A stretch of DNA of 64,000 nucleotides from Hyphomicrobium sp. GTDB lineage: Bacteria; Pseudomonadota; Alphaproteobacteria; Rhizobiales; Hyphomicrobiaceae. Position 1 is the first letter of the stretch; each line of letters opens with the position of its first letter. The notes under the pieces were generated by a model. That model saw only the letters and a program-made list of their open reading frames with translations, was not told the DNA's origin and ran no database searches. Where the stretch lies: assembly GCA_003987725.1 (NCBI GenBank), contig RXJH01000004.1, positions 62,001 through 126,000 on the forward strand, given 5' to 3'. A program made the translations under genes and the position numbers. Of this stretch, positions 6,155 through 48,873 are shown in pieces.

Positions 6155-6158
6155 GGGT

Positions 6159-6773: not shown

Positions 6774-6894
6774 TCGTTATGCTGAGAGGTAGTCCTGGAA
6801 CATTAAAAGCGTATTTATCGAAAGGTCTTTCCTTCGGCGCGGTTCACAAAGCGTTAAGCGAAAGAAATACGTCCGAGCTGACCCGGCCTTCCCA

Positions 6895-7948: not shown

Positions 7949-8143
7949 ATGAACATGTTTTCGCGTTTCATGAACGACGAGTCGGGCGCTACGGCCATCG
8001 AATATGGCCTGATCGCTGCTATCATCTCTGTGGGCATCATCGGCGCGCTCGGCGCCGTCAAGGACTCGCTGAATTCGACCTTCACGAGCGTCTCGACCTC
8101 GCTCACCGGTACCGGCAGCAGCGGCAGCGGCAGCGGCGGCTGA
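7949..8143 (+). CDS. flp: Flp/Fap-type major pilin
   Basis: 64-residue prepilin. The Flp cleavage and processing motif is visible as G|ATAIEYGLIAAI (Gly14, Glu-Tyr at +5/+6), preceded by a short hydrophilic leader and followed by one hydrophobic helix. The C-terminus is a Gly/Ser/Thr-rich tail (TGTGSSGSGSGG) typical of surface-exposed Flp ends. A good ribosome-binding site (gggaga) precedes the ATG. It is the first gene of the rightward tad operon; the prepilin peptidase CpaA encoded downstream is expected to process it. Confidence 0.95.
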   Translation: MNMFSRFMNDESGATAIEYGLIAAIISVGIIGALGAVKDSLNSTFTSVSTSLTGTGSSGSGSGG

Positions 8144-10162: not shown

Positions 10163-11779
10163 ATGCGCAGTAATTTCGGATTTTTGTGGCGCGCACAGTT
10201 GCGCGCCATTGTGATGCTTGTCGGCGCGACGCTCGCCCTTCCGGGGGCTTCGGCGCAGCCACAAGACTTGGACGAGTCCTATCGCGACGTCTCCGGCGCG
10301 GGCCAGCATCAGTCCTTCATCCGGATCCAAGATACCGGTGGACCGATCAGGAAAAGCCTCAAGATCGGCATGGGAAAATCGGTCCTCATCGAGTTTCCGC
10401 GCGATGTCCGCGACGTGATGGTTTCGAACCCTGCCGTCGTCGATGCGGTGGTGCTGAGCTCCAACCGCGTCTTTCTGCTCGCCAAAGGGAGCGGCGAAGC
10501 GAACGCCTTCTTCTTCGATACGTCGGGCGCGCAATTCGCGAGCATGGAGCTTTACATCGAAAGAGAGACGGCGGGGCTGCAAGCGCTTCTCAACCGGATC
10601 ATTACCGGCGCTTCGATCAAGGTCGAGATGCTCAATCAGACGGTCATTCTGACTGGCAGCGTCAAGAGCCCGATCGACTCGACCCGTGCCGGCAACATCG
10701 CCGGGCAGTTCATCTCGCAGCAGCTCGTGAGCACGTCTATCAACGTCAAAGAGGGCGTTTCGACTGCCGAAACCAAGTCCAATGATGAAAAGCAGCCCGT
10801 CATCAACATGCTGACGGTCGAGGCCGAAGAGCAGGTGATGCTCAAGGTGACTGTTGCCGAAGTGCAGCGTACGCTTCTGAAGCAGTTGGGCGTCAACCTC
10901 GGCGGCGTGCTGCAATCGGGAAGCTTCTCGACGACGCTTCTGACGGAGAATTCTTTTCCGATAACGACTGCCGCGGGCCTCGGGTCACTTCCGACGTTCG
11001 GAGTTCCTGCGGCTGCCGGCGCGGCCTGCGCCGTCGGCGCGCCGATCTGCCCGTTCAACTCCGGTCCCGGTAACGGCGCCATCGGCAACAGCGGCCTGCT
11101 TTCGGGTTGGGGATCGGGATCCAACCGGATCCAGTCGGCCATTCGGGCGCTGGAACGCGACGGGTTGATCCGCACGCTCGCCGAGCCGAACCTCACCGCC
11201 ATCTCCGGCGAGTCCGCGGAATTCCTCGCGGGCGGCGAAGTGCCTTACGTCACCGGCATTGACACGCAAACGGGTGCGAGTTCCGTCGCGTTCAAGAAAT
11301 TCGGCGTGCAGCTCGCCTTTACGCCTGTCGTTCTGTCGGAAGGCCGCATCAGCCTGAAGATCGATACCAGCGTCAGCGATATCTCCCGGTTCATCGGCAA
11401 TAATCCGGTGCTCGATACGCGGCAGGCGAAAACCGTCGTCGAGTTGCCGTCGGGCGGATCACTGGCGCTTGCGGGTCTCATCAATACCAAGACGCAACAA
11501 AACATCGACGGCTTGCCGGGTGCGAAGGACATTCCGATTCTCGGCACTCTCTTCCGCAGCCGCGATTTCCAGAACCAGGAGACGGAGCTCGTCGTCATCG
11601 TGACGCCGTATCTCGTGCAGCCGACGTCGCGTCAGCAGCTTGCGGCGCCGACGGATGGTTTGGCGCCTGCGACCGATCTCAAGGCGGACTTTCTCGGTCA
11701 TCTCAACCGGATCTACGGCAAGGGCGAAGTCATGCCCTCCGGCGGTCTCAAGGGTGACTACGGTTTCATCGTCGAATAG
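10163..11779 (+). CDS. cpaC: Flp pilus outer-membrane secretin CpaC/RcpA
   Basis: 538-residue secretin. A signal peptide (VGATLALPGASAQ) opens it. Next come the pilus N-domain (about residues 70-140: IEFPRDVRDVMVSNPAVVDAV), a BON-like segment (ASIKVEMLNQTVILTGSV) and the C-terminal secretin domain from about residue 215. The latter holds the VPYVTGIDTQTGAS and LPSGGSLALAGLINTKTQQN blocks and the LPGAKDIPILGTLFRSRDF...ELVVIVTPYLV end typical of secretins. It forms the outer-membrane pore for the Flp pilus. A Gly/Pro-rich insertion with two cysteines lies near residues 275-305. The lipoprotein CpaD encoded next is the expected pilotin-like partner. Confidence 0.96.
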   Translation: MRSNFGFLWRAQLRAIVMLVGATLALPGASAQPQDLDESYRDVSGAGQHQSFIRIQDTGGPIRKSLKIGMGKSVLIEFPRDVRDVMVSNPAVVDAVVLSSNRVFLLAKGSGEANAFFFDTSGAQFASMELYIERETAGLQALLNRIITGASIKVEMLNQTVILTGSVKSPIDSTRAGNIAGQFISQQLVSTSINVKEGVSTAETKSNDEKQPVINMLTVEAEEQVMLKVTVAEVQRTLLKQLGVNLGGVLQSGSFSTTLLTENSFPITTAAGLGSLPTFGVPAAAGAACAVGAPICPFNSGPGNGAIGNSGLLSGWGSGSNRIQSAIRALERDGLIRTLAEPNLTAISGESAEFLAGGEVPYVTGIDTQTGASSVAFKKFGVQLAFTPVVLSEGRISLKIDTSVSDISRFIGNNPVLDTRQAKTVVELPSGGSLALAGLINTKTQQNIDGLPGAKDIPILGTLFRSRDFQNQETELVVIVTPYLVQPTSRQQLAAPTDGLAPATDLKADFLGHLNRIYGKGEVMPSGGLKGDYGFIVE

Positions 11780-11797
11780 CTGGGGCGTAGACGCATC

Positions 11798-12538
11798 ATG
11801 CCGAGCAAGTGCACGACCGACCGCCTTCCGCAAAATGTGCGCTCGGGAATAGCGAAGGTTCTCATCGCCGCGTTGCTTCCGGTAATCGTCGCCGGTTGCC
11901 GGCACGATGCGCCCGGTCCTCAGGTTGCGGGTTGGCAGCTCGTCGACCCCGAGCAGCGCCATCCGATCCTCGTGTCTCAACAGCCTGCAACGCTCAACCT
12001 CAGAGTCGCGACGAGTGCCGACGGTTTGACGCCGATGCAGCGGGCGCGCGTCCTTGAGTTCGCCAGCAAAAGCAAGGCCTCGGATGCCGGTAACAGCCGC
12101 ATCGTCATTTCGGCTCCCGGCGGATCGCCCAACGAAAGCGCCGCGATGCAAGCGGCCGACGAAGCGCGTCACCTGATGATCGAGGGCGGCTATTCGGAAA
12201 CATCGATCGCGGTCGAGGCCTATCACGCGGACGGCCGGGATGCGCCGCTGCGGTTGTCATACATGCGCTATGTCGCCGAAGCGCCCGACTGCGGCAAGGA
12301 CTGGTCGGAAAATCTCGCGCGGACTTATCAGAACACGCCCTACCCGAACATGGGCTGCGCGGGGCAACGTAATCTCGCCGCCATGGTGGCAAACCCGGCC
12401 GATCTTCTCGGTCCGCGTACGATGACAAGCCGCGATTCGAACCGTCGTGACGATATGTACGCAAAATACGTGAAGGGCGCACCGCTCGCCGCGAAGGACG
12501 AAGCCGCTACAGTCGCGAAGCCCGGCCTCAGCAACTGA
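11798..12538 (+). CDS. cpaD: CpaD family pilus lipoprotein
   Basis: 246-residue protein whose N-terminus ends in a lipobox (LLPVIVAGC, Cys34), so an outer-membrane lipoprotein. The CpaD family pattern is visible in the C-terminal half: CGKDWSENLARTYQNTPYPNMGCAGQ region, then NLAAMVANPADLLGPRTM and a DSNRR segment. CpaD proteins are tad-locus lipoproteins thought to assist secretin assembly. The gene lies 18 bases after cpaC and 15 before cpaE, consistent with one transcript. Confidence 0.93.
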   Translation: MPSKCTTDRLPQNVRSGIAKVLIAALLPVIVAGCRHDAPGPQVAGWQLVDPEQRHPILVSQQPATLNLRVATSADGLTPMQRARVLEFASKSKASDAGNSRIVISAPGGSPNESAAMQAADEARHLMIEGGYSETSIAVEAYHADGRDAPLRLSYMRYVAEAPDCGKDWSENLARTYQNTPYPNMGCAGQRNLAAMVANPADLLGPRTMTSRDSNRRDDMYAKYVKGAPLAAKDEAATVAKPGLSN

Positions 12539-12553
12539 TCTTTCGGAGACGAC

Positions 12554-13855
12554 ATGTCCAAGAACGCTTCAGCCATTCCAAGCGACGAGCCGTTTCTCGA
12601 GGATGCCGCGCCGCAGGATCTTCATCCGGCCGATCGCGCCCGGCCCATTCCGCGCATTTCGATCCAGGCGTTTTGCGACGACGCTCATGTCGCGGAAGCG
12701 CTTGAGCATGCCGCCAGCGATCGCCGGTTGTCGAAGACACACGTCAGCGTTCATATGGGCGGCATTGGTGCCGCCGTTGCGCATTACGTCGATAGCCCGA
12801 CGCCAAATCTGATCATTCTCGACAGCGCGCTCAAAGCAGGCCAGCTGCTCGCCGATCTCGACCGTCTCGCGGAAAGCTGCGATCCGGGGACCAAGGTCAT
12901 CGTCGTCGGACGCCACAACGATGTCGTGCTCTATCGCGAACTTCTAAAGCGCGGCGTCGCGGAGTATCTCGTCGCGCCTGTCGATCCGATGGCGTTGATG
13001 GAGAGCATCTCAAATCTCTACAACAATCCCGAGACCGACCCCGTCGGCCATGTGTTCGCGTTCATCGGTGCGAAGGGCGGCGTCGGATCGTCGACCATTT
13101 GTCACAACGTCGCGTGGACGATGTCGGAGGTTTTGAAATCCGACGTTACGATTGCCGATCTCGATCTGGCATTCGGAACCACGGGGCTCGATTTCAATCA
13201 GGACCCGGTGCAGGGAATTGCTGAAGCGCTGGCGACGCCTGAACGTCTCGACGATCAGCTGCTCGACCGCCTGCTTACCAAATGCTCGGAGCATCTCTCG
13301 ATTTTCGCGGCGCCTGTGGTTCTTGATCGCGATTACGAAATTTCGCCGGAAGCCTGCTCGATCGTCATCGACGTGGCGCGCCAGAATGTGCCGTTCGTTG
13401 CCGTCGATCTTCCGCACGGATGGTCGGCGTGGTCGAAGCGCGTTCTGCTGCAGGCCGACGAGGTCGTCATTACGGCCGTGCCGGATCTCGCGAACCTCAG
13501 GAATGCCAAGAACATCGTCGATCTTCTGAAGACGGCGCGAAAAAACGACGAGAAGCCGCATCTCGTTCTGAACATGGCAAACGTGCCGAAGCGGCAGGAA
13601 ATCAGCGTTAAGGAATTCGAGCAGGCTCTGGGGCTAAAGGTGATCTCGGTCATCGATTATGACTCCGAAACCTTCAGTCAGGCCGCCAATAACGGCCAGA
13701 TGCTCGGCGAGTTCAACTCGAAAGCCAAAGCCATCGAGAAGTTTAACGAACTGGCGTTCAGGCTAACGCGCCGTAAAGACACTAAAGCAGAAAAGCAGAG
13801 TTCGCCGCTGTCGGCCATCGCGCCGATCCTGGAGAAGTTGAAGCTCAAGCGTTGA
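12554..13855 (+). CDS. cpaE: CpaE/TadZ pilus-localisation ATPase-like protein
   Basis: 433-residue protein of the MinD/ParA-like CpaE family. The first about 150 residues form a degenerate receiver-like domain. The ATPase domain starts near residue 165 with FIGAKGGVGSSTICHNVAW. This deviant Walker A keeps the signature lysine of KGGVG but has Ser-Ser instead of Gly-Lys-Ser/Thr, as is usual in CpaE proteins. Switch-like motifs follow (DLDLAFGTTGLDF; VDLPHGWSAW). CpaE/TadZ positions the Tad apparatus at the cell pole. The 13-base gap to cpaF supports co-transcription. Confidence 0.93.
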   Translation: MSKNASAIPSDEPFLEDAAPQDLHPADRARPIPRISIQAFCDDAHVAEALEHAASDRRLSKTHVSVHMGGIGAAVAHYVDSPTPNLIILDSALKAGQLLADLDRLAESCDPGTKVIVVGRHNDVVLYRELLKRGVAEYLVAPVDPMALMESISNLYNNPETDPVGHVFAFIGAKGGVGSSTICHNVAWTMSEVLKSDVTIADLDLAFGTTGLDFNQDPVQGIAEALATPERLDDQLLDRLLTKCSEHLSIFAAPVVLDRDYEISPEACSIVIDVARQNVPFVAVDLPHGWSAWSKRVLLQADEVVITAVPDLANLRNAKNIVDLLKTARKNDEKPHLVLNMANVPKRQEISVKEFEQALGLKVISVIDYDSETFSQAANNGQMLGEFNSKAKAIEKFNELAFRLTRRKDTKAEKQSSPLSAIAPILEKLKLKR

Positions 13856-13868
13856 GGATCTAGATCGC

Positions 13869-15365
13869 ATGTTCGGTAGGCGCTCGAACGATTCATCGTC
13901 AGAGAGGCGCGTCGCGCCGCAGTCACCTGAACCGCAGGGGGCTGTTGCGACTATCGAAACGCGTGCAGCGGCGCCGGGGCGGACGACCATGCCTGCGAGC
14001 CCTCCCGTGCAGCGGTCGGCGGAGCCGGTCGCCGAATCGCAGCGGCGACACTCGGAAGAGTACTACGACGTCAAAACGACGGTCTTCAACGCGCTGATCG
14101 ATACGATCGATCTCACGCAGCTGTCGAAGCTCGATGGCATTGCGGCGCGCGAAGAGATCCGCGACATCGTCAGCGAAATCATTCAAATCAAAAACGTCGT
14201 GATGTCGATTGCCGAGCAGGAAGAGCTGCTCGAAGACATCTGCAACGACGTTCTGGGCTATGGTCCGCTCGAGCCGCTTCTCGCGCGCGACGACATTGCC
14301 GACATCATGGTGAACGGCGCCGGCACGACCTTTATCGAGGTCGCGGGCAAGGTGCAAAAGACCAATGTCCGCTTCGCCGACAATCAGCAGCTGATGAATA
14401 TCTGTCAGCGCATCGTCAGCCAGGTCGGCCGGCGTGTCGATGAATCGAGCCCGATTTGCGACGCGCGACTTCCGGATGGATCGCGCGTCAACGTCATCGC
14501 GCCACCGCTCGCGATCGACGGCCCGGCGCTCACGATCCGAAAGTTCAAGAAGGATCGTCTGCGGCTCGAGCAGCTGGTGAAGTTCGGCTCGATCACGCCG
14601 GATGCGAAGACGGTCCTCGAGATCATCGGCCGCGTTCGCTGCAACGTCCTGATTTCCGGCGGCACGGGCTCCGGCAAGACGACGCTGCTCAACTGTCTCA
14701 CGGGTTCGATCGACGACGACGAGCGCATCATCACGTGCGAAGACTCGGCCGAACTCCAGCTGCAGCAGCCGCACGTCGTACGACTTGAAACGCGCCCGCC
14801 CAACCTCGAGGGCGAGGGCGAGATCAAAATGCGCGATCTCATCAAGAACTGCCTGCGAATGCGGCCTGAGCGGATCATCGTCGGCGAGGTCCGCGGACCT
14901 GAGGCCTTCGACCTGCTGCAGGCGATGAACACAGGCCACGACGGCTCGATGGGCACCTTGCATGCCAACAGTCCGCGCGAGGCCTTGAGCCGTCTTGAAT
15001 CGATGATCATGCAGGGCGGCTACGCACTGCCGATCAAAACCATTCGCGAGATGATTTGCGGCTCGGTCGACGTGATCGTCCAGGCGTCGCGACTTCGAGA
15101 CGGATCGCGCAAGATCACGCACATCACCGAAGTGCTCGGGATGGAAGAAGAGACGATCACGCTCCAGAATCTGGTCGTCTACGAAATTACCGGCGAGGAT
15201 GCGCACGGCAAGCTGATCGGCAGGCACCGGTCCACGGGCATCACGCGGCCGCGTTTCATGGAGCGCGCGGAATATTACGGAGAGGCCGAGCGGCTGATGA
15301 CGGCGCTCGTCGCTTCCGAAATTGCAGACAAGCACGGCAGTCCGCTGGGAGATCGCAATGATTGA
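13869..15365 (+). CDS. cpaF: Tad secretion ATPase CpaF/TadA
   Basis: 498-residue hexameric secretion ATPase that powers Flp pilus assembly. After a disordered Pro/Arg-rich N-terminus the T2SSE-type core shows Walker A ([14 protein letters not shown]), the Asp box ([18 protein letters not shown]), Walker B ([23 protein letters not shown]) and the His box ([20 protein letters not shown]). Size and motif order fit the TadA/CpaF subfamily. Its stop overlaps the start of tadB by 8 bases (ATGATTGA), suggesting translational coupling. Confidence 0.97.
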
Positions 15366-23860: not shown

Positions 23861-23861
<1 letters not shown>

Positions 23862-25081
23862 CAACTCTTGCCTCTGAATGTCTTGCGCGGATCGAGCGCG
23901 TCGCGCACGGCTTCGCCCATGAAGATCGCGAGCGACAGGATGATGGAGACGGCAATGAAGCCCGAGATGCCGAGCCAAGGCGCTTCGAGGTGCTTCTTAC
24001 CCTGGAGAAGCAGCTCGCCGAGCGACGGCGAGCCGGGCGGCATGCCGAGCCCCAGGAAGTCGAGCGCGGTCAGCGCCGCGATCCCGCCCGAAAGCTTGAA
24101 AGGGAGGAAGGTCAGCGTCGCCACGGCGGCGTTCGGCAGCAGGTGCTTGAACATGATCTGCCAGTCGGAAAGCCCGAGCGCGCGCGCGGCGCGAACGTAT
24201 TCCAGGTTCCGGCCACGCAGAAACTCGGCGCGGACGAGGCCGACGAGAGAGGTCCAGCTGAAGATCATCAGGATGCCGAGCAGCGTCCAGAATCCCGGAA
24301 TGAAGAGGGACGAAATGATCAGCAACACGAACAGCTCGGGGATCGAATTCCAGATTTCGAGGAGGCGCTGGAAGATGAGGTCGACGCGGCCGCCAAAATA
24401 GCCCTGCACGGCGCCCGCGAGAATGCCGACGGCTGAGGAGACGACAGTCAGGATAAGGCCGAACAGCACCGATATGCGGAAGCCGTAGATCACACGCGCA
24501 AGCACATCGCGGCCTTGGTCATCGAGGCCGAGCCAATTGGTGTTTCCAAATTCTTCGTAGCGCGGCACCTGATCGGCGGGGGCATCGCAGAGCTTGAGCT
24601 TTGTCGCCCACGGTGGCGGCGCGGGATAGCCGAGGCAGACGCCGTTGTCGCCGATGCGGCCCGGATAATCCTTGTTGATCGTCGAATAGGAATAGCGGAT
24701 CGGCGGCCAGAGCATCCAGCCGTTGGCGTTGATCTCGTTGGCGATGTCGGGTGTCCGGTAGTCGGTCACGGCGAGGAAGCCGCCGAACTTCTCTTCCGGA
24801 TAATCGACGAGAACCGGGAACAGGATTTCGCCCTTGTAGCTGGCGATCAGCGGACGGTCGTTGGCGATGAACTCAGCGAACAGCGAGCCGACGAACAGGG
24901 CCGTGAAAATGATGAACGAGCGGTAGCCGATCTTGTGGGCTTTGAAGCGTTCCCAGCGGCGGCGATTGACCGGTGAGAGGTGGAAGCGCCGACGCAACCT
25001 TGCCAAGAGCGATGTTGTGGGCTTCGCGGCCGGAGCAACGGTGGCGTCTGACGCGCGTTCGGTTCGCTGGTCCATCGTCAT
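23861..25081 (-). CDS. yejE: Peptide ABC transporter permease YejE
   Basis: 406-residue inner-membrane permease. After a basic N-terminus (RLRRRFHLSPVNRRRWERFK) comes TM1 and a large periplasmic loop with the YejE features (FGGFLAVTDYRTPD, MLWPPIRYSYSTI, GNTNWLGLDDQGRDVLARV). The BPD-type permease core follows with the EAA-loop segment (AARALGLSDWQIMFKHLLPNA). It has about six membrane helices. It overlaps yejB by 4 bases upstream and yejF by one base downstream. Confidence 0.95.
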
Positions 25082-26199
25082 ACCTCGCGCGTCTCGAAGT
25101 CGATGCGCGGATCGACAAGGGTGTACACGAAGTCCGACAGGATGCCGACGAAGAGGCCGACGAGCGAGAAGATATAAAGCGATGCGAAGACGACGGGATA
25201 GTCGCGCTTCTCGATGCTTTCGAACGAAAGGAGCCCGAGCCCATCAAGCGAGAATATCGTCTCGATCAGCAAGGCGCCTGAGAAGAACGCGCTGATGAAG
25301 GCTGACGGGAAGCCCGAGATGACGAGCAGCATGGCGTTCCGGAAGACGTGTCCGTACAGAACCTGGTTCTCGGTCAGGCCCTTGGCGCGCGCCGCGACGA
25401 CATATTGTTTGCGGATCTCGTCGAGGAACGAGTTCTTCGTCAGGAACGTCATCGCGGTGAAGGAGCCGACGGCCATCGCGATCATCGGCAGCACGAGGTG
25501 CCAGAGATAGTCGGTGATTTTTCCGAACCACGACAGCTGATCCCAGTGGTCGGAGAACAAGCCCCGCGACGGGAACCACTGGAAGAACGACGAGCCCGCG
25601 AAAAGAATGAGCAGCAGAACGGCAAATAGAAAGCCCGGGATCGCGTAGCCGATGACGAGCACGGCGCTCGACCAGGTATCGAACTGCTCGCCGTCCTTCA
25701 CGGCCTTGCGAATGCCGAGCGGGATCGAGATCAGATACGTCAGCAGCGTCATCCATATGCCGAGCGAGATCGAGACCGGCAGCTTCTCCTTGATGAGGTC
25801 CAAGACCGAGACGTCGCGGAAATAGCTCTTGCCGAAATCGAACGTCAGGAAGTTCTTCATCATGATGTAGAAGCGTTCGTAGGCGGGCTTATCGAAGCCG
25901 AACTGCTTCTCGAGACTCTTGATGAAAGCCGGGTCGAGGCCTTGGGCGCCGCGATACTTCGATGTGATGGAGTCGCCACCGCCGACACCGAGTTGGTTGC
26001 TCATGGCGCCGCCGCCAAGCGTGTCGCCGCCACCGCCGCCCATGCGGCTGACGATCGACGACGATTGCCCCGTCAACTCGGCGATCATGCGCTCGACGGG
26101 TCCGCCCGGGGCGAACTGAATGATGATGAACGAGAACAGCATGATCCCGAAGAGCGTCGGGATCACCAGCAGCAATCGCTTTAAAAGATAAACAGCCAT
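25078..26199 (-). CDS. yejB: Peptide ABC transporter permease YejB
   Basis: 373-residue permease beginning MAVYLLKRLLLVIPTLFGI, the classic DppB-like start. The EAA loop reads VVAARAKGLTENQVLYGHVF and the protein ends in the family motif LVDPRIDFE. A Gly-rich insert of about 30 residues follows TM1 (MGGGGGDTLGGGAMSNQLG), a position where YejB proteins have variable Gly-rich sequence. Adjacent genes overlap on both sides, so the operon is tightly coupled. Confidence 0.95.
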   Translation of the reverse strand: MAVYLLKRLLLVIPTLFGIMLFSFIIIQFAPGGPVERMIAELTGQSSSIVSRMGGGGGDTLGGGAMSNQLGVGGGDSITSKYRGAQGLDPAFIKSLEKQFGFDKPAYERFYIMMKNFLTFDFGKSYFRDVSVLDLIKEKLPVSISLGIWMTLLTYLISIPLGIRKAVKDGEQFDTWSSAVLVIGYAIPGFLFAVLLLILFAGSSFFQWFPSRGLFSDHWDQLSWFGKITDYLWHLVLPMIAMAVGSFTAMTFLTKNSFLDEIRKQYVVAARAKGLTENQVLYGHVFRNAMLLVISGFPSAFISAFFSGALLIETIFSLDGLGLLSFESIEKRDYPVVFASLYIFSLVGLFVGILSDFVYTLVDPRIDFETREV

Positions 26200-28103
26200 C
26201 AGGGCGTTGCCGGTTGTTCCTGAGATTGTGCCGCCGGCTTGCCGGAGCTTAGCGCCGCGGCCTTTGCCGGATCATACCACCACGTGTCCAGAATGCCCGC
26301 ATCATACTTGGGCTGAACAGCGGGGCGCGAATACTTATTCCAATACGCAACCGCGTACGACGCCTTATACCAGTGGGGTACCCAATAATGACCTGCACGG
26401 AGCACACGATCAATGGCGCGCGTCGCTGTGACCAGTTCGGCGCGTGATTTCGCTGCGACAACCTTGTCGATAAGCGCATCGATAACGGGATCGGAAATGC
26501 CGGCGAGGTTGAATGAGCCGTCCGTTTTGGCCGCTTCCGAGCCCCAATAGCTGCGCATTTCGATACCGGGCGTCAGGCGCAACGAGTAGCGCTGGGTCGT
26601 TGCATCGAAATCGAAGGCCTTCACGCGCCGCTCGTATTGAGACGGATCAACGAGACGCCACGTGGCTTCGACGCCGATCTTGCGTAGATTTTCAGTGTAG
26701 GGAACGGTTATGCGCTCGAACATCGCCTCGTAGTCGAGGAATTCGATGGTTAGCCGCTCGCCTTTGTCGTTATGCAGGTAGCTATCGGGGCCCGGTTTCC
26801 AGCCGGCGGCGATCAGAAGGTCGCGGGCCTTTTTCAAATTGTCGCGGTTGTTACCGCTCCCGTCCGTCACGGGCGGCAGATAGGGCTCGCCGAAGACTTC
26901 AGGCGACAGCTTATCCTTGTAGGGTTCGAGCAGCGCCAGCTCTTCAGGGCTCGGCTTCCCGGTCGCCTTCATGTCGGTGTTGTCGAAGTAGCTCGTCGTG
27001 CGCGTGTAGAGCCCGTAGAACAGCTTCTTGTTCGACCATTCGAAATCGAACACGAGATCGAGCGCTTGGCGGACGCGCGGATCCTTGAACTTATCGCGGC
27101 GGGTGTTGAGGAAGTAGCCCTGCGCTCCCGACGGGCGATCGTCCGGCAGCGACACCTTCAGCAGGCGGCCTTCGGCGACGGCGGGGATGTTGTAGCCAGT
27201 TGCCCAGGAGACGCTGGAGAATTCCTCGCGGAGGTCGATGTTGCCGGATTTCACGGCTTCGAGCTCGACGTTCCTATCGCGATAATAGTCATAGCGGATC
27301 TCGTCGAGGTTATAGCGGCCCTTGTTTACGGGCAGATCCTTCGCCCAATAATCCTCGCGCCGCGTATAGGTGATGTCGGTGCCGGGATTGAAGTTCTTGA
27401 TCTTGTAGGGGCCCGATCCGAGCGGCGGCTTCAGCGACGTCTCTTCGAACAGCTGCGTCGTGTAATAGGCTTTCGAGAGCACCGGCAGTTGCGCGACGAT
27501 GATCGGCAGATCACGCACCAATGTGCCTTTGAACGTGTAGCGCACCGTTTCGGGATCGAGCGCTTCCGCTGACACGACATCGTGTAAGGTCATCGCAATT
27601 GCCGGATGACCTTTTTCCTTCAGGAGGCCGAAGGTGAAGGCCACGTCCTCGGCGGTCAGCTGCGAGCCGTCGGAGAATTTCGCCTCGGGGCGCAGCTTGA
27701 ACGTTACCGACATGCCGTCCGGCGCGACATCGGCCGATTTGGCGATGAGACCGTAGACGGCGTCTGGCTCGTCCTGCGCACGCACCATCAAGGCATCGAA
27801 CAGGAGATCGAGTCCCTGCGCGGCGTCGCCCTTCAGGATGAATTGATTCAACGTGTCGAACGTGTTGGCGCCGCCGGTTCCCATCGTCACCATGCGGCCG
27901 CCTTTCGGCGCGTCGGCGTTGACGTAGTCGAAGTGCTTAAAGTCCGCGGGATACTTCAATTCCCCGAAGACGGAGAGGCCGTGGCGTGGCTCCGCCGACG
28001 CGATTGCTCCGTGTGCGGCGGAGAACAGCAGCGCCAACGCGGCGGCAAGCGTCACTTTGGTGGTCGTCGTCTTTGATATGGACCGAGAGCCGAGCACGGT
28101 CAT
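26199..28103 (-). CDS. yejA: Extracellular solute-binding protein, YejA-like (second copy)
   Basis: 634-residue family 5 (DppA/OppA-type) periplasmic binding protein. An export signal (LAAALALLFSAAHGAIASA) is followed by HGLSVFGELKYPADFKHFDY, typical of the YejA branch. Later come GPYKIKNFNPGTDITYTRREDYWAKDLP and the Asn/Arg-rich C-terminal lobe. It binds peptides for YejBEF. Its stop abuts the yejB start (shared base), and its own start overlaps the stop of another family 5 binding protein by 4 bases. The two are clearly paralogous. Confidence 0.93.
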   Translation of the reverse strand: MTVLGSRSISKTTTTKVTLAAALALLFSAAHGAIASAEPRHGLSVFGELKYPADFKHFDYVNADAPKGGRMVTMGTGGANTFDTLNQFILKGDAAQGLDLLFDALMVRAQDEPDAVYGLIAKSADVAPDGMSVTFKLRPEAKFSDGSQLTAEDVAFTFGLLKEKGHPAIAMTLHDVVSAEALDPETVRYTFKGTLVRDLPIIVAQLPVLSKAYYTTQLFEETSLKPPLGSGPYKIKNFNPGTDITYTRREDYWAKDLPVNKGRYNLDEIRYDYYRDRNVELEAVKSGNIDLREEFSSVSWATGYNIPAVAEGRLLKVSLPDDRPSGAQGYFLNTRRDKFKDPRVRQALDLVFDFEWSNKKLFYGLYTRTTSYFDNTDMKATGKPSPEELALLEPYKDKLSPEVFGEPYLPPVTDGSGNNRDNLKKARDLLIAAGWKPGPDSYLHNDKGERLTIEFLDYEAMFERITVPYTENLRKIGVEATWRLVDPSQYERRVKAFDFDATTQRYSLRLTPGIEMRSYWGSEAAKTDGSFNLAGISDPVIDALIDKVVAAKSRAELVTATRAIDRVLRAGHYWVPHWYKASYAVAYWNKYSRPAVQPKYDAGILDTWWYDPAKAAALSSGKPAAQSQEQPATP

Positions 28104-30037
28104 TTTCCTTTTGCCGCGTCGAGGGCTTTCGCCTTGTCAGCATCGTACCACCAGACCTGCGAGAAGCCTGACGTTTGCGACGGCAACTTCTCTGGCCGGC
28201 TGAACTTGTCCCAGTAGGCGACACGATCGAACGGGTAATACCAGTTGGGCACGACGTAATAATTCCACAGCAATACTCGATCGAGCGCGTGCGTCGCGGC
28301 CACAAGCTCGGCGCGGTCCTTGGCGAAGATGATCTTGTCGACGATCTTGTCGATCGCAGGGTTCTTGATGCCTATCGTATTGCGGCTGCCGGGTCTGTCG
28401 GCCGATGCCGAACTCCAGAAATCGCGCTGCTCGTTGCCAGGTGAATTCGATTGAGAGAAGTTATCGACGATCATATCGAAATCGCGACTGTCCTCACGCT
28501 GCTTATACTGGGCGTCGTCCACTTCGCGAACGGTGGCGTTGATGCCCATCGATTGAAGGTCTTTCGCGTATGGCAACATGATCGGTTCGAAGGTGTCGCC
28601 TGCGAGCAGAATTTCGACTTTCATTTGCTCGCCCTTGGCGTTGCGAAGCACGCGCGCCGTAGAGCCCGATGAGAGGCCGATCGTCTTTTTGATCTTGCAC
28701 CAAGTGCCGCACGACGGATCGTCGACGCTCTCGCTCTTAATTTTCCAGCCGGCGGCTTCGAGAAGCTTCAGCGCTTCCTGCTGATGTTTGCGGTAATCGC
28801 CTTCCTCGGTATTGACCGGGTTCTTCCACTCGGTCGTGAATACTTCCGGGGGAACGTCCGACTTGACTTCATTCAGGATCTCGAGTTCGCGCCCCTGAGG
28901 CAGACCCTTTGATGCCAATTCGGAATTGTCAAAATAGCTGCCGACGCGTTTGTAGCTACCGAAGAAGGTTCTCTTGTTTGCCTCTTCAAAATTGAACAAG
29001 AGGTTGAAGGCTTGCCGTACTCGGACATCCTGAAACTGCTCGCGCCTCGTATTGAATGCGAAGGCCTGCATGGGAGCAAGCCGTTCCACTGGGATGTCCT
29101 CTTTCTTGACGAGGCCCTTCTTTAAAGATTCGAAGTTGTATTTCGTGGCCCAATCAGAGGCCTTGTTCTCCGCCCAATAGTCCAGCTTCCCGATTTTGAA
29201 ATCTTCGAACGCGGGTGTTTTGTCTCGATAGTAGGTGAATTCCAGCGTGTCGAAATTCTGTTGGCCGCGCATAACGGGCAAGTCTTTCGCCCAATAGTCG
29301 GGCACGCGCTCGTAGACGATCTTGCGGCTCGTATCGACTGACTTGATTTTGTACGGGCCGTTGCCGAGAGGGGGCTCGACTGTGGTCTTGCCGATGTCGC
29401 GTTGGTTGCCGCTCGAGTCTTTGCCTTCCCAATAGTGCTTCGGCACGATGTTGAGCTCGCCGACGATCATCGGCAACTCGCGATTGCCTGCCTTGTCGAA
29501 CGTGAATTTCACCTCGTGGTCGCCGGTCTTTTCCGCTTTCTCGACGTTCTTGTAGTAGAACGCGTAAAATGGATTGACCTTCTTGGCCTCGTCGAACGAG
29601 AAGATCACGTCTTCAGGGGTGATCGGCTGGCCGTCCTGGAATTTCGCTTCGGGGCGCAGCTTGAACGTCACGGACGAGAAGTCATCCGGGTGAGACGCGC
29701 ACTCGGCGATGAGTCCGTACTGTGTCGAGGGCTCGTCGAGGCTCGGCGTGAAGAGGCTGTCATAGATCAGCCCGAGGCCCGCGGCCTTGACCCCTTTGTC
29801 GGAGAGTGGGTTCAGCGTGTCGAATGTGCCGAGCGACCATTGGCGCACGGTTCCGCCTTTCGGCGCATTGGGATTGACCCAATCGAAATTCTTGAAGTCC
29901 GGTCCGTATTTCGGTTCGCCGACAAGCGACATCGCGTGATGGCACTGGGCGTCGTCCGCTTTTGCCGGGTTCGGGATCGGAGAGAAACTCAAGAACGCCA
30001 GCGCGGCAGCAATCAACGGCGTCAGGCGCATCTGCAT
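28100..30037 (-). CDS. Extracellular solute-binding protein, YejA-like (first copy)
   Basis: 645-residue family 5 binding protein with a signal peptide (MRLTPLIAAALAFLSFSPIP). It shares with its neighbour the blocks FNWVNPNAPKGG-type start (FDWVNPNAPKGG), GNGPYKIKSVDTSRKIVYERV and PDYWAKDLPV. A pair of cysteines (DPSCGTWCK) in the middle is absent from the second copy and may form a disulfide. It heads the leftward yej operon, so two binding proteins serve one importer. I start at the MQMRLTP methionine; the frame extends nine residues further. Confidence 0.92.
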   Translation of the reverse strand: MQMRLTPLIAAALAFLSFSPIPNPAKADDAQCHHAMSLVGEPKYGPDFKNFDWVNPNAPKGGTVRQWSLGTFDTLNPLSDKGVKAAGLGLIYDSLFTPSLDEPSTQYGLIAECASHPDDFSSVTFKLRPEAKFQDGQPITPEDVIFSFDEAKKVNPFYAFYYKNVEKAEKTGDHEVKFTFDKAGNRELPMIVGELNIVPKHYWEGKDSSGNQRDIGKTTVEPPLGNGPYKIKSVDTSRKIVYERVPDYWAKDLPVMRGQQNFDTLEFTYYRDKTPAFEDFKIGKLDYWAENKASDWATKYNFESLKKGLVKKEDIPVERLAPMQAFAFNTRREQFQDVRVRQAFNLLFNFEEANKRTFFGSYKRVGSYFDNSELASKGLPQGRELEILNEVKSDVPPEVFTTEWKNPVNTEEGDYRKHQQEALKLLEAAGWKIKSESVDDPSCGTWCKIKKTIGLSSGSTARVLRNAKGEQMKVEILLAGDTFEPIMLPYAKDLQSMGINATVREVDDAQYKQREDSRDFDMIVDNFSQSNSPGNEQRDFWSSASADRPGSRNTIGIKNPAIDKIVDKIIFAKDRAELVAATHALDRVLLWNYYVVPNWYYPFDRVAYWDKFSRPEKLPSQTSGFSQVWWYDADKAKALDAAKGK

Positions 30038-30127
30038 ATTCGGTTTCGTCCTTCCAAGTCGCAACTACGGTGGCAGCTTAACATGGGGTCTGTGACCGGG
30101 GATAAAGCCGGCCGGCCGGACGTGAAA

Positions 30128-43698: not shown

Positions 43699-44637
43699 TC
43701 AGTTCAGCTTGGCCAGGAACGCGCGCGCCAGATCCGCGATCTCGTCGACAGACTCGTCGAGCGCGAAGTGGCCGGCGTCAAGCATGTGGATCTCGGCGTT
43801 AGGGACGTCGCGCGCATAGGCGCCTGCGCCAGCAACTGCGAACGAAGGGTCATATTTGCCCCACACCACGAGCATGGGCGGCTGATGTTCGCGTAGCCAA
43901 GCCTGCCACTTCGGGTATGACGCGACGTTATTGCGGTAGTCGTAGAAGAGGTCCGCCTGAATTTTATACTGGCCGGGCCGCGACAGCGAAATGAACTCGT
44001 CGGTCCAGGTATCGGGATTATATCGTTCGGGGTTCGGGCTCGTTCCTACGTGGCGTTGCCTGCATGCTTCGAGCGATGTGAAGCCCGCCATGAAGGTTGC
44101 CTCGTTCGGCGCGCGATCCTTCCAATAGGGTTTGCGGGCTTCCCACGCTGGGCCGAGCCCCTCGATGTGAGCGACCGCGTTTTGAATGATCAAACCTCGA
44201 ACGCGTTCGGGATGGGCAAGCGCGAGGCGAAATCCGATGGGGCCTCCGTAATCCTGCATAAACAATACGTAGCTCTCGAGTCCGAGCTTCTCTGTGAAAT
44301 CGCCGATCACGGCTGCCAGATGGTCGAAGGTATAAGAGAAGGTTTCCGCTGATGGAGCATCGCTATGGCCGAAGCCCGGATAATCCGGCGCAACGAGATG
44401 ATAGCGCCCGGCCAGCAGCGGGATCAGTGTGTCGAACATCCGTGATGACGTTGGAAAGCCATGCAGAAGCAGCACGGTCGGAGCGTTGCGCGGTCCAGCT
44501 TCGCGATAGAAGATTTTCAGGCCATCGACCATGACGTTGTTATAGGTCGTTGTCCGCGATGTCGAAGCCATCGGCTGCGCTTGCGCCGCGTTGCCGAAGA
44601 GTGCCAATCCGGCCATGAGAAAAGCTCGCTTGAGCAT
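43699..44637 (-). CDS. Secreted alpha/beta hydrolase, epoxide-hydrolase/dehalogenase-like
   Basis: 312-residue alpha/beta hydrolase with a signal peptide (LKRAFLMAGLALFGNAAQAQ). Core motifs: LLLHGFPTSSRMFD (oxyanion HGFP), MQDYGGPIGF with Asp as nucleophile (typical of epoxide hydrolases and haloalkane dehalogenases, G-x-D-x-G-G), a cap region with many Trp/Tyr, and the terminal HFALDE with the catalytic His. The start at MLKRAF has a strong site (ggaggcgc); a longer frame upstream is rejected. It is divergent from the type III PKS gene and shares its 405-base upstream region. Substrate unknown. Confidence 0.88.
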   Translation of the reverse strand: MLKRAFLMAGLALFGNAAQAQPMASTSRTTTYNNVMVDGLKIFYREAGPRNAPTVLLLHGFPTSSRMFDTLIPLLAGRYHLVAPDYPGFGHSDAPSAETFSYTFDHLAAVIGDFTEKLGLESYVLFMQDYGGPIGFRLALAHPERVRGLIIQNAVAHIEGLGPAWEARKPYWKDRAPNEATFMAGFTSLEACRQRHVGTSPNPERYNPDTWTDEFISLSRPGQYKIQADLFYDYRNNVASYPKWQAWLREHQPPMLVVWGKYDPSFAVAGAGAYARDVPNAEIHMLDAGHFALDESVDEIADLARAFLAKLN

Positions 44638-45042
44638 CGCGCCTCCTTTCATAAGGGTCGTCATGATTTGCGGATGACCCATTCGCGGTCTCCCTCGTGG
44701 CATTCGGTGCGAAGACCATCAAGGCGTCTCCGCCTTCCGTATGACCTCGCCGCTTGCTAGAATATTCCTGCAATTGCTCTTGAGCTGCAAAATGGCGGAT
44801 AAATAACACTTCGTTCACAGCCGATCGATTCGGTTTTTCAAGAAATTCATGAGGTACTCTAAAGGGCCGACTACCTCAAATTTTGAGGATTGCGATGTTG
44901 CGAATTCTGGCAATCCTCAAACTGAACAATAGAAGCATTTCGTAAGCATGCTGATAAAGCCGATTTGCCGGTGAATCCCAAATTGCCCTAACTGTCATTC
45001 AGGCGAAGGTGGCGTTCAGGCACATCGCAACGGGAACGATTC
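44638..45042. other. 405-base divergent region between hydrolase and polyketide synthase genes
   Basis: AT-richer than the flanking genes, without supported coding sequence. It holds the promoters of the leftward alpha/beta hydrolase and the rightward polyketide synthase and contains a striking cluster of CCTCAAA half-sites at 44874-44921, annotated separately. Confidence 0.6.
44874..44921. promoter_or_regulatory. Cluster of three CCTCAAA half-sites forming nested inverted repeats
   Basis: CCTCAAA at 44874-44880 and its inverse TTTGAGG at 44882-44888 form a palindrome centred on one base. The inverse arm extends to TTTGAGGATTGC (44882-44893), which is repeated perfectly in inverse as GCAATCCTCAAA (44910-44921), 16 bases away. 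So one heptamer occurs three times in 48 bases, about 120-170 bases upstream of the polyketide synthase start. Such alternative pairings suggest a regulator-binding array or a switchable hairpin; no regulator gene lies next to it. Confidence 0.6.
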
Positions 45043-46149
45043 ATGACAGTGTTGCCGGTTGACTTCGCAAAGCACGTGCGCAAACCGGACCTTGGACTGC
45101 CGGTTGAAATCCTTTCCATTGCGTCCGCCAATCCGCCCCTCAAGGTCAGCCAGAGCGATGCGCTTGCCAACGCGGCACTGATCTATCCGCAGTTCGCGAG
45201 CATGCATGGGCTTTTTTCGAATACGGGTATCGAGCATCGCTATACCTGCCAGCCGATGAGCTGGTACCGGCAAACGCATACGTGGGAAGAGCGCACGGAT
45301 GTCTTCCAAAAGCATGCGTTGGATCTGCTCGAGCAGGTTGCGCTGGAAGCAACGGCCCGTGCGGGACTGGCGCTCGGCGATATCGATGCCTTCGTCACCA
45401 ATACGATCACGGGGCTCGCTATTCCCAGTCTCGACGCGCTTCTTATGAACCGCCTACCGTTTTCGCCGAACGTCGAGCGGCTGCCGATTTTCGGTCTTGG
45501 GTGCGGCGGCGGCGTCGCGGGGCTCGCGCGCGCAGCGCGTTTTGCGCAGGGGCGGCCCGGCCGGAATGTGCTCTTCATCACCGTCGATCTCTGCAGCCTT
45601 TGCGCGCGTCCGAACGATCCAAGCATGGCAATGTTCGTTGCTGCGGCTTTGTTCGGGGATGGCGCGGCGGGAGTCGTGCTGCGGACGGCTGCCAACGGTG
45701 CGAGTGAAGGCGGCAATTGCAATAGGCCGGTCGTGCGCGCGTTCGGCGAGCACACGTGGCGAAACACGCGGCATATCATGGGATGGGATGTCAAAGGCGA
45801 CGGCTTTGGCGTCGTGCTCAGCCCCGAGCTTCCCACGTTGATGCGCAACAATCTCGGTCCCGTGGTGAAAGACTTCATCGGCAGAAGCGGGATGACGCTC
45901 GGCGACTTCAAAGGATTTCTCCTTCATCCGGGGGGACGCAAGGTGCTGGAGACGGCGGAAGAAGTGCTCGGCATCGACAGGACGCTGCTGGCGCATTCGT
46001 GGGGCGTGTTGCGCGACTTCGGCAACATGTCTTCGGCGACGGCGCTCTTCATCTTGCAGAGGGCGATGGCGGCTGGTGACAAGGGGCGGCACCTTTTGGC
46101 GGCGTTCGGTCCTGGCTTCTCGGCTTATTTGGTCGCGCTTGATCTTTAG
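45043..46149 (+). CDS. Type III polyketide synthase (chalcone/stilbene synthase-like)
   Basis: 368-residue homodimeric-type ketosynthase. The catalytic triad is visible: Cys154 in GLGCGGGVAG, His295 in LLHPGGRK and Asn328 in FGNMSSAT. Other family features are GDGAAGVVL and GFGVVLSPELP. It extends acyl-CoA starters with malonyl-CoA without an acyl carrier protein, giving pyrones, resorcinols or phloroglucinols. The bacterial relatives with long fatty starters make alkylresorcinols or alkylpyrones. It faces an FAD oxidoreductase gene tail-to-tail with stop codons overlapping; the gene beyond is an ICMT-like methyltransferase. Product type is inferred. Confidence 0.93.
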   Translation: MTVLPVDFAKHVRKPDLGLPVEILSIASANPPLKVSQSDALANAALIYPQFASMHGLFSNTGIEHRYTCQPMSWYRQTHTWEERTDVFQKHALDLLEQVALEATARAGLALGDIDAFVTNTITGLAIPSLDALLMNRLPFSPNVERLPIFGLGCGGGVAGLARAARFAQGRPGRNVLFITVDLCSLCARPNDPSMAMFVAAALFGDGAAGVVLRTAANGASEGGNCNRPVVRAFGEHTWRNTRHIMGWDVKGDGFGVVLSPELPTLMRNNLGPVVKDFIGRSGMTLGDFKGFLLHPGGRKVLETAEEVLGIDRTLLAHSWGVLRDFGNMSSATALFILQRAMAAGDKGRHLLAAFGPGFSAYLVALDL

Positions 46150-47285
46150 GTTCGCGCGTCCGCCGACGTTATCAGGCGGTCGAGACCGCTGAGGCGCGTT
46201 GCGGAGACGAGCATCGTCACTATGCTCGGAAACAGGCGGGCTCCCACAATTCCGGCACGGCGGAGCCGTGCGTCTGCGATGACCCGGTCGAGAATCAATG
46301 CACGGCGAAACTGCGGCTTGTAGTTTGCGAGCATGCGGCGTTGAAAGCTAGAAGCGCTTTCGCCGTTGAGAACGGCTTGAGCGGCGGCAATTCCCGATGC
46401 CAAAGCGAGGGCCGTGCCGTCGCCCGAGAACGAGGGGATTACCGCCAATTGGTCGCCGACCGGGTAGATCGTCTCCGCGATCGTTGCCGACCGCATGAAA
46501 CCGTAAGGCAGTCCCGCGACGGCGAGCGGCTTTTCCCAGGCGGGCGTCGCGCCGGTTGTGAGTTCTTCGAAGAAAGGGGATTGGCGCGCGAAATACGCCG
46601 ATTGCGCGGCCCAACTCGTTCCGATGGATGTGAGAACGGCCGCACTGACGATCCATGCAATCGAGAGCGTTCCGTTCTCGATTAGGCATAGCCCGAGGTA
46701 GCCGCCAGTAAATGCGATCAGATGCACCATACGCATCAGCGAGGCGCGCGCTGCTTTGGCTGTGTGGAGATGCATCTTGAAGCCGACCATCGGCGCGTCG
46801 GGCCTCGGAAGGCCGCGTATGTTGTGCTTGCCGCTCGCGAGGGCCGCGGCACGGCATTCGAAAGACGCACCTGCCGTCTGAACACGTACGCGCTGCACAC
46901 GAGCTTCAAGCCGTTCGACCGATGTCGCGCGATAGATCTTTGCGCCGGCGCGTTCCGCTGCTTGCAGGAGCGTTTCATCAAGCAGGAGCCGCGAAATGCC
47001 GACGGCCTCGAAGGGAAGTCGCGCGCTGGCACGTGTCGCGCCACTTGAAAGGCATAGCGTTTCGACGGGACTGCCGCCGAGAGCCGCGACGTCGACGCCA
47101 AGATAATGCAGCAGTGCTTGTGCGCGGTCGCTTAGGAATTCACCACAAACCTTGTGATGCGGGCCGCGCATGCGCTCGAATACCATCGTGCTTACGCCAT
47201 GGCGTGCGAGCTCGAGGGCAAATGCGGAACCTGCCAAGCCGCCGCCGACGGCTATGGCGTCCGCCGTCGCGCCGCCGATGGGCAC
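46146..47285 (-). CDS. FAD-dependent oxidoreductase (geranylgeranyl-reductase/SrsC-like)
   Basis: 379-residue flavoprotein with the dinucleotide fold VGGGLAGSAFALELARHG, the segment HHKVCGEFLSDRAQALLHYLG typical of geranylgeranyl reductase-like monooxygenases, a second FAD contact around LIENGTLSIAWIV, and FSGDGTALALASGIAAAQAV (GD motif) near residue 300. In alkylresorcinol clusters such a protein hydroxylates the ring. I take the GTG start just after the ICMT-like stop; a TTG at 47315 would add ten residues and overlap that gene. Its stop overlaps the stop of the convergent polyketide synthase gene. Confidence 0.85.
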   Translation of the reverse strand: MPIGGATADAIAVGGGLAGSAFALELARHGVSTMVFERMRGPHHKVCGEFLSDRAQALLHYLGVDVAALGGSPVETLCLSSGATRASARLPFEAVGISRLLLDETLLQAAERAGAKIYRATSVERLEARVQRVRVQTAGASFECRAAALASGKHNIRGLPRPDAPMVGFKMHLHTAKAARASLMRMVHLIAFTGGYLGLCLIENGTLSIAWIVSAAVLTSIGTSWAAQSAYFARQSPFFEELTTGATPAWEKPLAVAGLPYGFMRSATIAETIYPVGDQLAVIPSFSGDGTALALASGIAAAQAVLNGESASSFQRRMLANYKPQFRRALILDRVIADARLRRAGIVGARLFPSIVTMLVSATRLSGLDRLITSADART

Positions 47286-47289
47286 ATCA

Positions 47290-47841
47290 TCAGATCTCGG
47301 TTCGCTGTGTCGCAACGGCTTGCTCGGAATGCGCGCGCCGAACCGAAAGAGCTTCGTCCTCGAGTTCGATCTTGTACGCCAGAACTGCGGTCCAGACCGC
47401 GCCCATGATCACGCCGACGGCCAAAGCACCGAAGACGGCCGGCAGCAGAAACGTCTCGGCAATCGTAACCGCGTAATTCGGATGGCGAAGATATCGATAG
47501 GGGCCGCGCAGCGTGACCGGCGCGCCTTCGAGCGTGAAGATGCGGTGCGTCCAAAAACGTCCGAGCGTGCTGATGACCCAGTAGCGGACGCCCTGGAGGG
47601 CGATATAGATCGCCGCCAGAAGATAGGATGCGCTCGCGCTCGCAGGTATCAGGAAAAAGATGCTTGCGATCCAGGCGAGATGCGTCGTCGCGACGACGGG
47701 GTAATACGATCGGCCAGCTTCTTTGGCGCCTGCCGCGATCAGCGCCCGTGTGTTGCGCGCCGAGTAAAGCTCCTCGGCGCCTCTTTGCAGGAGAACGAGC
47801 AGCGCGATTATCTGCGGCAGGCCGATAAGATCTGAGAGCAT
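47290..47841 (-). CDS. Isoprenylcysteine carboxyl methyltransferase (ICMT)-family membrane protein
   Basis: 183-residue integral membrane protein with about five helices and the ICMT SAM-binding region YRYLRHPNYAVTIAE plus the C-terminal ELEDEAL acidic motif. Bacterial members adjacent to type III PKS genes (for example BpsB/SrsB types) O-methylate alkylresorcinols or pyrones; that role is an inference from context. It lies just upstream of the FAD oxidoreductase gene on the same strand with minimal spacing, so the two are co-translated. Confidence 0.88.
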   Translation of the reverse strand: MLSDLIGLPQIIALLVLLQRGAEELYSARNTRALIAAGAKEAGRSYYPVVATTHLAWIASIFFLIPASASASYLLAAIYIALQGVRYWVISTLGRFWTHRIFTLEGAPVTLRGPYRYLRHPNYAVTIAETFLLPAVFGALAVGVIMGAVWTAVLAYKIELEDEALSVRRAHSEQAVATQRTEI

Positions 47842-47898
47842 ATATTAGCCGCTCACGAATGAATTCGGCGCCACTCTACAATCGGACTGCCGCCATTC

Positions 47899-48873
47899 CT
47901 ATCGATCGCGATCCAATTGGTTGATCAGCCATTGCTGAACGGCATTTGGGACGCCCTGTTCGCAGGACGGAAAAGCGAACGAAAAGCCAGTAGCTTTCAG
48001 CCGATGGTTTGAAAGCCGGTTTTCATAGGCCACGCTGTCGGCGATGACATGGCCGGACAAAAGCTGCAGCAGAACGAATGGCAACTTGCGGCCGCGCCCC
48101 GTGACGCCCAATGCCTTCGCCGCAATCTCGGCCAATCGCTCGCCCGGAACGGGGGCGTCATCGACGATGAAATAGCGGCTTCCTATTTCTCCGCTGTCAG
48201 TCAAATGAAGAATGGCGCGGGCACAGTCCTCGACGTGTATCGGAGAGGTATAGCGGGCGGGACCTCTGAGGCCGTAGACAGGTCTGCCTTCTCGGAGCGG
48301 TTCGAGCACGTACTGCGCGAACCAGGAGCCGGGGCCATACACCCAGCCCGGAAAGGCGGCCACGATAGGCAGTCCGCGTGCGACGTATTCCGGCAAGGAT
48401 TCGATAGCCGGAGCGAGATAGGGTCCCCATCCCCTCGGATGAGGGACCGCAGTCTCGTTGCAGATCTCCGGCCCGCAGTCCCCATAATAGCTGGTGCCGG
48501 CGACGTAGACGATCCGTCGGGTCTTCGCGGGGTCGATGGCTTCGAACAGCGCGCGATCCATCTCGAGCCGGCGGAGGCAATACTGTCTCGCGCGCTCCTT
48601 TGTGACGCGGCGGCCGAATGTCTGCGGCTGTGCGAGATGGATGACGGCGTCGGCCTTACGCATGGTTTCCCGCCATCTCGCGTCTTTGGCGGACAGGTCG
48701 CCGGTGATCACTTTCACGCGCTCCGAGGCGAGCACGCCGGCGTTGCTTTTCGATCGGGTCAACGCATCGACGTCGTGGCCGGCGGCAATTGCCGCGCGGA
48801 GGACATAGGCGCCAATGAAGCCGGTGGCGCCTGTGAGGAATAGTCTTTGACCCTTCTCGGAAGCCAAGGTCAT
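47899..48873 (-). CDS. NAD-dependent epimerase/dehydratase-like protein lacking the usual lysine
   Basis: 324-residue extended SDR-fold protein. The Rossmann motif is TGATGFIGAYVLRAAIAAGHDV, and substrate-region blocks are VYVAGTSYYGDCG, FPGWVYGPGSWF and YTSPIHVEDCARAILHL. The catalytic YxxxK of the family is not evident: the expected place reads GPYLAPAIES, with alanine where lysine belongs, so it may have a changed mechanism or be a binding protein. Same strand as the ICMT/FAD pair and 57 bases upstream of it, so probably part of that transcript. Confidence 0.75.
   Translation of the reverse strand: MTLASEKGQRLFLTGATGFIGAYVLRAAIAAGHDVDALTRSKSNAGVLASERVKVITGDLSAKDARWRETMRKADAVIHLAQPQTFGRRVTKERARQYCLRRLEMDRALFEAIDPAKTRRIVYVAGTSYYGDCGPEICNETAVPHPRGWGPYLAPAIESLPEYVARGLPIVAAFPGWVYGPGSWFAQYVLEPLREGRPVYGLRGPARYTSPIHVEDCARAILHLTDSGEIGSRYFIVDDAPVPGERLAEIAAKALGVTGRGRKLPFVLLQLLSGHVIADSVAYENRLSNHRLKATGFSFAFPSCEQGVPNAVQQWLINQLDRDR

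Follow-up and report, generated by a model that had tools for sequence, protein, structure and literature searches.

A candidate phenolic-lipid gene cluster of Hyphomicrobium combining a type III polyketide synthase, an ICMT-like methyltransferase and a flavoprotein

The closest described relatives of the gene cluster reported here, which lies in Hyphomicrobium sp. (GenBank assembly GCA_003987725.1, contig RXJH01000004.1, positions 62,001 to 126,000 of the forward strand; this whole stretch of 64,000 nucleotides is called the window, and its own numbering is used below), are gene sets built around a type III polyketide synthase (PKS). The srsABC genes of Streptomyces griseus and the pkqABC genes of M. 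smegmatis and Streptomyces MNU77, the latter yielding a polyketide quinone, comprise the same set of PKS, methyltransferase and oxidoreductase as the window cluster, and SrsB resembles isoprenylcysteine carboxyl methyltransferases (ICMT). In the BpsA/BpsB pair of Bacillus a PKS adjoins an ICMT gene, and hidABC-like cassettes, composed of a type III PKS, a class I methyltransferase and a flavin adenine dinucleotide (FAD) oxidoreductase, occur in cyanobacteria, planctomycetes and Alphaproteobacteria, the label being our own for the last group. PKS-methyltransferase-oxidoreductase operons are described as giving polyketide quinones in Actinobacteria (PMC9927152, PMC5916927), and methyltransferase-oxidoreductase-PKS operons are linked to alkylresorcinols and hierridins (PMC10896814, PMC8086630), PMC10896814 leaving the role of the FAD enzyme open.

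The window cluster is comprised of a PKS, an ICMT-like methyltransferase, a flavoprotein and an extended short-chain dehydrogenase/reductase (SDR). We predict that it is a phenolic-lipid cluster with a logic similar to that of Srs and Pkq, its likeliest product being a methoxylated alkyl-hydroquinone or quinone, a reading to which we give about an even chance. The genes of the locus are the following:

43699-44703, minus strand: alpha/beta hydrolase (PF00561), a neighbour of the cluster and not a member
45043-46149, plus strand: type III PKS of 368 amino acids (PF00195 and PF02797, both over the cut-off) with the triad Cys154-His295-Asn328
46146-47315, minus strand: FAD oxidoreductase (the flavoprotein; PF01494, PF01266) with a flavin monooxygenase/halogenase fold, a probable ring hydroxylase
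47290-47841, minus strand: ICMT-like membrane methyltransferase of 183 amino acids (PF04140, 1.5e-18; RHPNY and EDE motifs), the probable O-methyltransferase of the PKS product
47899-48873, minus strand: extended SDR (epimerase family, PF01370) of 324 amino acids, without the YxxxK lysine

The original prediction had described a complete PKS set tail-to-tail with an FAD oxidoreductase, an ICMT-like methyltransferase and an atypical epimerase-like SDR, and these descriptions agree with the triad residues and Pfam domains listed above. The 3' ends of the PKS and flavoprotein genes share four nucleotides (46146-46149), in which the stop codons TAG of the plus and TAA of the minus strand overlap. 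On the minus strand, the ICMT-like gene lies 5' of the flavoprotein gene, overlapping or almost abutting it (GTG at 47285 is an alternative to the TTG start at 47315), and the SDR gene lies another 57 nt upstream of the ICMT-like gene. No internal stops were found, and the ratio of nonsynonymous to synonymous changes (pN/pS), calculated against up to four relatives, was 0.05-0.33 overall: with four relatives it was 0.05-0.14 for the PKS, 0.09-0.23 for the ICMT, 0.24-0.27 for the flavoprotein and 0.24-0.33 for the SDR, and with one relative 0.20 for the hydrolase. The cluster is a real gene set under purifying selection.

The PKS and the ICMT form a conserved core. Of 102 related loci, 98 have an ICMT-family gene no further than 1.6 kb downstream from the PKS. 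The loci were picked by PKS similarity (the best 80 of one scan plus the family genomes) and counted with an ICMT profile built from matches in these very loci; two of the 104 loci were omitted, one a fragment (L050) and one on the same contig as L030 (L051). The four loci without a downstream ICMT are L038, L039, L040 and L052. Such pairs were met in many Alphaproteobacteria. A literature search pairing type III PKS, isoprenylcysteine carboxyl methyltransferase and alphaproteobacteria returned nothing, and the papers listed by further searches included none on this cluster, which is weak evidence of absence as most subscription journals fell outside the coverage.

The position of the window PKS was determined in a quick tree (43 of the 102 loci, the window and 20 plasmid loci) and in a careful tree of 60 rows, obtained after dropping seven short or long-branch rows and adding three, and rooted on the lineage associated with class I methyltransferases and FAD oxidoreductases. 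The window PKS falls on the side of the PKS-ICMT loci of B. velezensis, Lysinibacillus and Streptomyces, a side split from the class I methyltransferase-FAD lineage with a support of 100/100 in the careful and 99 in the quick tree; a grouping with chalcone-like PKSs having unrelated neighbours was not encountered. All 11 FAD-bearing ICMT-type PKSs of the tree belong to a single clade of 19 rows (100/97), in which the presence of the flavoprotein requires four changes, such as a single gain and three losses. This same clade contains 10 of the 11 opposite-strand cases found among the 98 ICMT-bearing loci, the other 87 having the ICMT on the strand of the PKS; the eleventh, L030, was outside the tree and has a PKS 87% identical to that of the window. 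The unusual split orientation noted in the original prediction is real, and it is thus an inversion, within the 19-row clade, of the usual co-directional pair; locus L034 has its ICMT on the PKS strand. A further Hyphomicrobium locus (L044, genome G055) carries a co-directional PKS-ICMT pair whose PKS, 41% identical to that of the window, belongs to another clade, so that the genus holds two PKS lineages.

Cys154, His295 and Asn328 are invariant in the 18 PKSs aligned. The enzyme was detected at E<=1e-30 in 25 of 103 family genomes and 10 of 22 genus genomes, the source genome having one copy, and a scan of viral contigs with the PKS as query gave no viral relatives. The nearest solved structure by sequence is Pks11 of M. 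tuberculosis (1.6e-51), which is also the nearest fold in Foldseek (4jap_A, TMq 0.88) to a model with a mean predicted local distance difference test score (pLDDT) of 86.2; further near folds include CylI, a PKS of M. marinum and Pks18.

This relationship favours the main rival explanation, namely an alkylpyrone pathway of the BpsA/BpsB type in which long-chain alpha-pyrones would be O-methylated by the ICMT-like enzyme and the flavoprotein would oxidize the pyrone or its chain; we consider it possible though rather unlikely. Pks11 is titled an alkylpyrone enzyme, the PKS-ICMT core is the BpsA/BpsB arrangement, a B. velezensis PKS-ICMT locus shares the window's side of the tree, and the flavoprotein is missing from most PKS-ICMT loci. 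Against it, the flavoprotein family is otherwise found with PKS sets matching the operons of alkylresorcinols and hierridins described in PMC10896814 and PMC8086630, and a phenol would be the better-fitting substrate. Trp248, which probably occupies the place of ArsB residue 281, judging from its alignment with Leu266 of Pks18 and the Trp of Pks11, was considered as a pointer to resorcinol synthesis and dropped as non-discriminating, since 57 of the 60 PKS rows, including those of R. etli and B. velezensis, have Trp there. PMC9927152 counts the Trp of Pks11 among the residues conserved at position 281, and according to PMC6274091 one residue switches resorcinol to pyrone synthesis. O-methylated pyrones stay a strong rival because Trp248 is indecisive, a one-residue switch is described in the latter source, and three Hyphomicrobium genomes have the core without the flavoprotein. 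In the window-clade PKSs of L038, L039 and L040, which have no ICMT neighbour, Phe is found at the place of Trp248, possibly reflecting a change of product.

The flavoprotein is closely linked to type III PKSs. At E<=1e-15 it was found in 9 of 103 family genomes, adjoining a PKS in 8; in genome G038 the contig stops at the flavoprotein gene, which has an ICMT on its other side. At E<=1e-20 it was present in 13 of 385 class genomes and 23 of 397 order genomes, both counts including the source genome. A type III PKS lies within about 1.5 kb in 32 of 36 flavoprotein loci: 25 have a PKS of the other lineage, in every case with a class I methyltransferase, and seven a PKS of the window type, five of them with an ICMT in view. 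No PKS is in view in L165, L167, L171 and L178, of which L165 and L171 are at contig ends. Twenty-nine plasmid records match the flavoprotein, and a type III PKS adjoins it in all eight inspected; in five of these an annotated class I-type methyltransferase gene separates the two. The window protein is 34-39% identical to these eight plasmid-borne copies. One such PKS-class I methyltransferase-FAD locus, on a Mesorhizobium plasmid (L160), adjoins transposase and integrase genes, a possible route of spread. In Sphingobium and Novosphingobium (L145:1719-3151 and L146:2416-3848), genes for a phosphopantetheine-binding protein and a ketoacyl synthase immediately precede the type III PKS, and at L195:1209-2272 the match to the flavoprotein next to the PKS is spread over several frames, which may reflect decay or sequencing errors.

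Outside the Alphaproteobacteria, a Streptomyces PKS-ICMT-flavoprotein locus, which we take to be srs- or agq-like, encodes a full-length homologue (profile match E 7.2e-17 over 323 columns, 24% identity), and the flavoprotein of a Deinococcus cassette (L164) is distant (E 1.9e-9 over 142 columns); an unrelated DAO enzyme used as control gave E 1.2e-6 over 40 columns only. The FAD gene downstream of the PKS in Rhizobium was dropped as a candidate for the same protein, being of the DAO family (PF01266) and aligning over only 40 columns.

In the careful FAD tree (46 rows, without L030, L051, L173, L186, L192, L194 and L195), 11 partners of ICMT-type PKSs and the L178 protein form one clade (100/100), which is either nested in or sister to the remaining sequences. 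Judged by these sequences, two type III PKS lineages draw on one and the same flavoprotein family. Since the flavoproteins beside ICMT-type PKSs constitute a single clade, one transfer is the simplest account: a PKS-ICMT pair would have acquired, probably once and with later losses, a flavoprotein whose family otherwise accompanies another lineage of type III PKSs. This direction is suggested by the wider spread of the family among class I methyltransferase loci. The family seems to mark type III PKS pathways that form phenols, and its occurrence in one PKS-ICMT clade therefore predicts resorcinol or quinone chemistry there rather than pyrones.

The function of the flavoprotein was further scrutinized through its fold and motifs. 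Its best NCBIfam match, GG-red-SF, is below the cut-off of that model. This match argues for a second alternative, in which the flavoprotein would alter the lipid chain as a reductase or desaturase of the geranylgeranyl-reductase superfamily, or would be a halogenase-like enzyme, and the pathway would end in a methylated polyketide whose tail is modified, not in a quinone; several halogenases and a geranylgeranyl-reductase-like protein (3oz2) are likewise among the nearest folds of the model (pLDDT 87.5). The Foldseek list is headed by flavin halogenases and a Cytophaga flavoprotein, with 3oz2 close behind, but 3-hydroxybenzoate 6-hydroxylase and kynurenine 3-monooxygenase are about equally near. 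The flavin halogenase motif WxWxIP is absent from all 20 flavoproteins analysed, for which reason a halogenase function was dropped; GDQ is present in all 20 and KVCG(E/D)F(L/I)S in 18. In view also of the tight linkage to type III PKSs, we regard this second alternative as improbable. The designation as hydroxylase is kept at the level of a probable one because halogenase and geranylgeranyl-reductase-like folds are near.

From the gene content we infer substrates, an order of steps, a product and its role as follows. The PKS would load a long-chain acyl thioester on Cys154, extend it with malonyl-CoA and cyclize the chain, an alkylresorcinol or alkylresorcylic acid being the most likely outcome; the ring would be hydroxylated by the flavoprotein and O-methylated by the membrane ICMT-like enzyme, and the resulting methoxylated alkyl-hydroquinone or quinone would remain in the membrane. 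A hydroxylated, O-methylated alkylresorcinol is favoured because operons of PKS, methyltransferase and oxidoreductase give polyketide quinones according to PMC9927152 and PMC5916927 and are linked to alkylresorcinols and hierridins in PMC10896814 and PMC8086630. Several observations weigh against this proposal. Most PKS-ICMT loci have no flavoprotein (8 of 102 have one), and five Rhizobium loci instead have a weakly matching DAO-family gene that passes E 1e-4. Three Hyphomicrobium genomes whose PKS is of the same clade (G045, G052 and G059) carry PKS and ICMT without it. Of the 22 genus genomes 17 lack the SDR, the top Foldseek matches of the flavoprotein are halogenases with the geranylgeranyl-reductase-like protein also near, and Trp248 is compatible with resorcinol and pyrone alike, Pks11 being an alkylpyrone enzyme with the same Trp. 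We know of no product for any close relative.

The SDR keeps the nucleotide-binding motif TGATGFIG and Y152, with Ala156 at the place of the YxxxK lysine; Ala is found there in all five aligned Hyphomicrobium copies. It occurs in 5 of 22 genus genomes, always inside this cluster, and among 297 order genomes in one, namely the source genome, the search extending up to the order. An SDR adjoining the ICMT in Azospirillum (L157) was dropped as the same protein at 23% identity. Among the genomes searched (genus and order) the SDR is seen only in Hyphomicrobium, and it may be a late addition that, as a guess, would bind or reduce an intermediate in a non-canonical way. The genus offers natural contrasts: PKS and ICMT, the same with the flavoprotein, and the same with flavoprotein and SDR.

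The alpha/beta hydrolase, whose N-terminus resembles a signal peptide by eye, had been counted as an extra gene of the cluster. This part of the original prediction did not stand: homologues at E<=1e-40 occur in 12 of 22 genus genomes and adjoin the PKS only here (G000) and in the nearest relative (G054), and the hydrolase was dropped as a member. The proposed Srs/Bps-like logic was otherwise supported, the PKS grouping with PKS-ICMT loci, ICMT and flavoprotein being linked to PKSs as counted above, and Streptomyces having a full-length homologue.

Hyphomicrobium is a ubiquinone-using methylotroph. A more far-reaching scenario, in which Hyphomicrobium uses a polyketide methoxyquinone as a structural lipid or as a membrane electron carrier besides ubiquinone, the flavoprotein was exchanged between PKS lineages and the lysine-less SDR completes the pathway, is speculative, and we consider it unlikely as a whole. 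If true, polyketide quinones would reach beyond Actinobacteria and a new tailoring step would be added.

Elsewhere in the window, genes for a secretin (PF00263) and a secretion ATPase (PF00437) at 10163-15365 resemble a Tad-type pilus set, and two consecutive SBP_bac_5 genes beside two permease genes at 23861-30064 specify an ABC transporter whose substrate-binding protein is present twice. The block 4001-8000 has a GC content of 0.541, against 0.617 and 0.596 in the adjacent blocks, and is overlapped by one open reading frame of at least 280 amino acids (3724-4650).

Compared with the known systems, the window cluster shares with Srs and Pkq an ICMT-family methyltransferase adjacent to the PKS; its flavoprotein matches over the full length that of the Streptomyces PKS-ICMT locus, which served as a stand-in. 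It is not a co-directional operon: the PKS is on the plus strand and the other genes are on the minus strand, so that methyltransferase and flavoprotein face the PKS rather than follow it, an SDR is added, and the flavoprotein has its nearer relatives in the class I methyltransferase cassettes. With BpsA/BpsB it has in common the adjoining ICMT and, as judged from the B. velezensis and Lysinibacillus stand-in loci, the side of the PKS tree, but its ICMT is on the opposite strand and a flavoprotein and an SDR are added. The hid-type cassettes, represented by alphaproteobacterial copies, share the flavoprotein, whereas the window PKS is in a separate clade (100/100) and its methyltransferase is a PF04140 ICMT and not of class I. 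Catalytic extended SDRs have a YxxxK pair, of which the window SDR retains Y152 and has A156 in place of the lysine. What is new here is the combination of a PKS-ICMT core with a flavoprotein common to another PKS lineage and with an SDR seen only in Hyphomicrobium.

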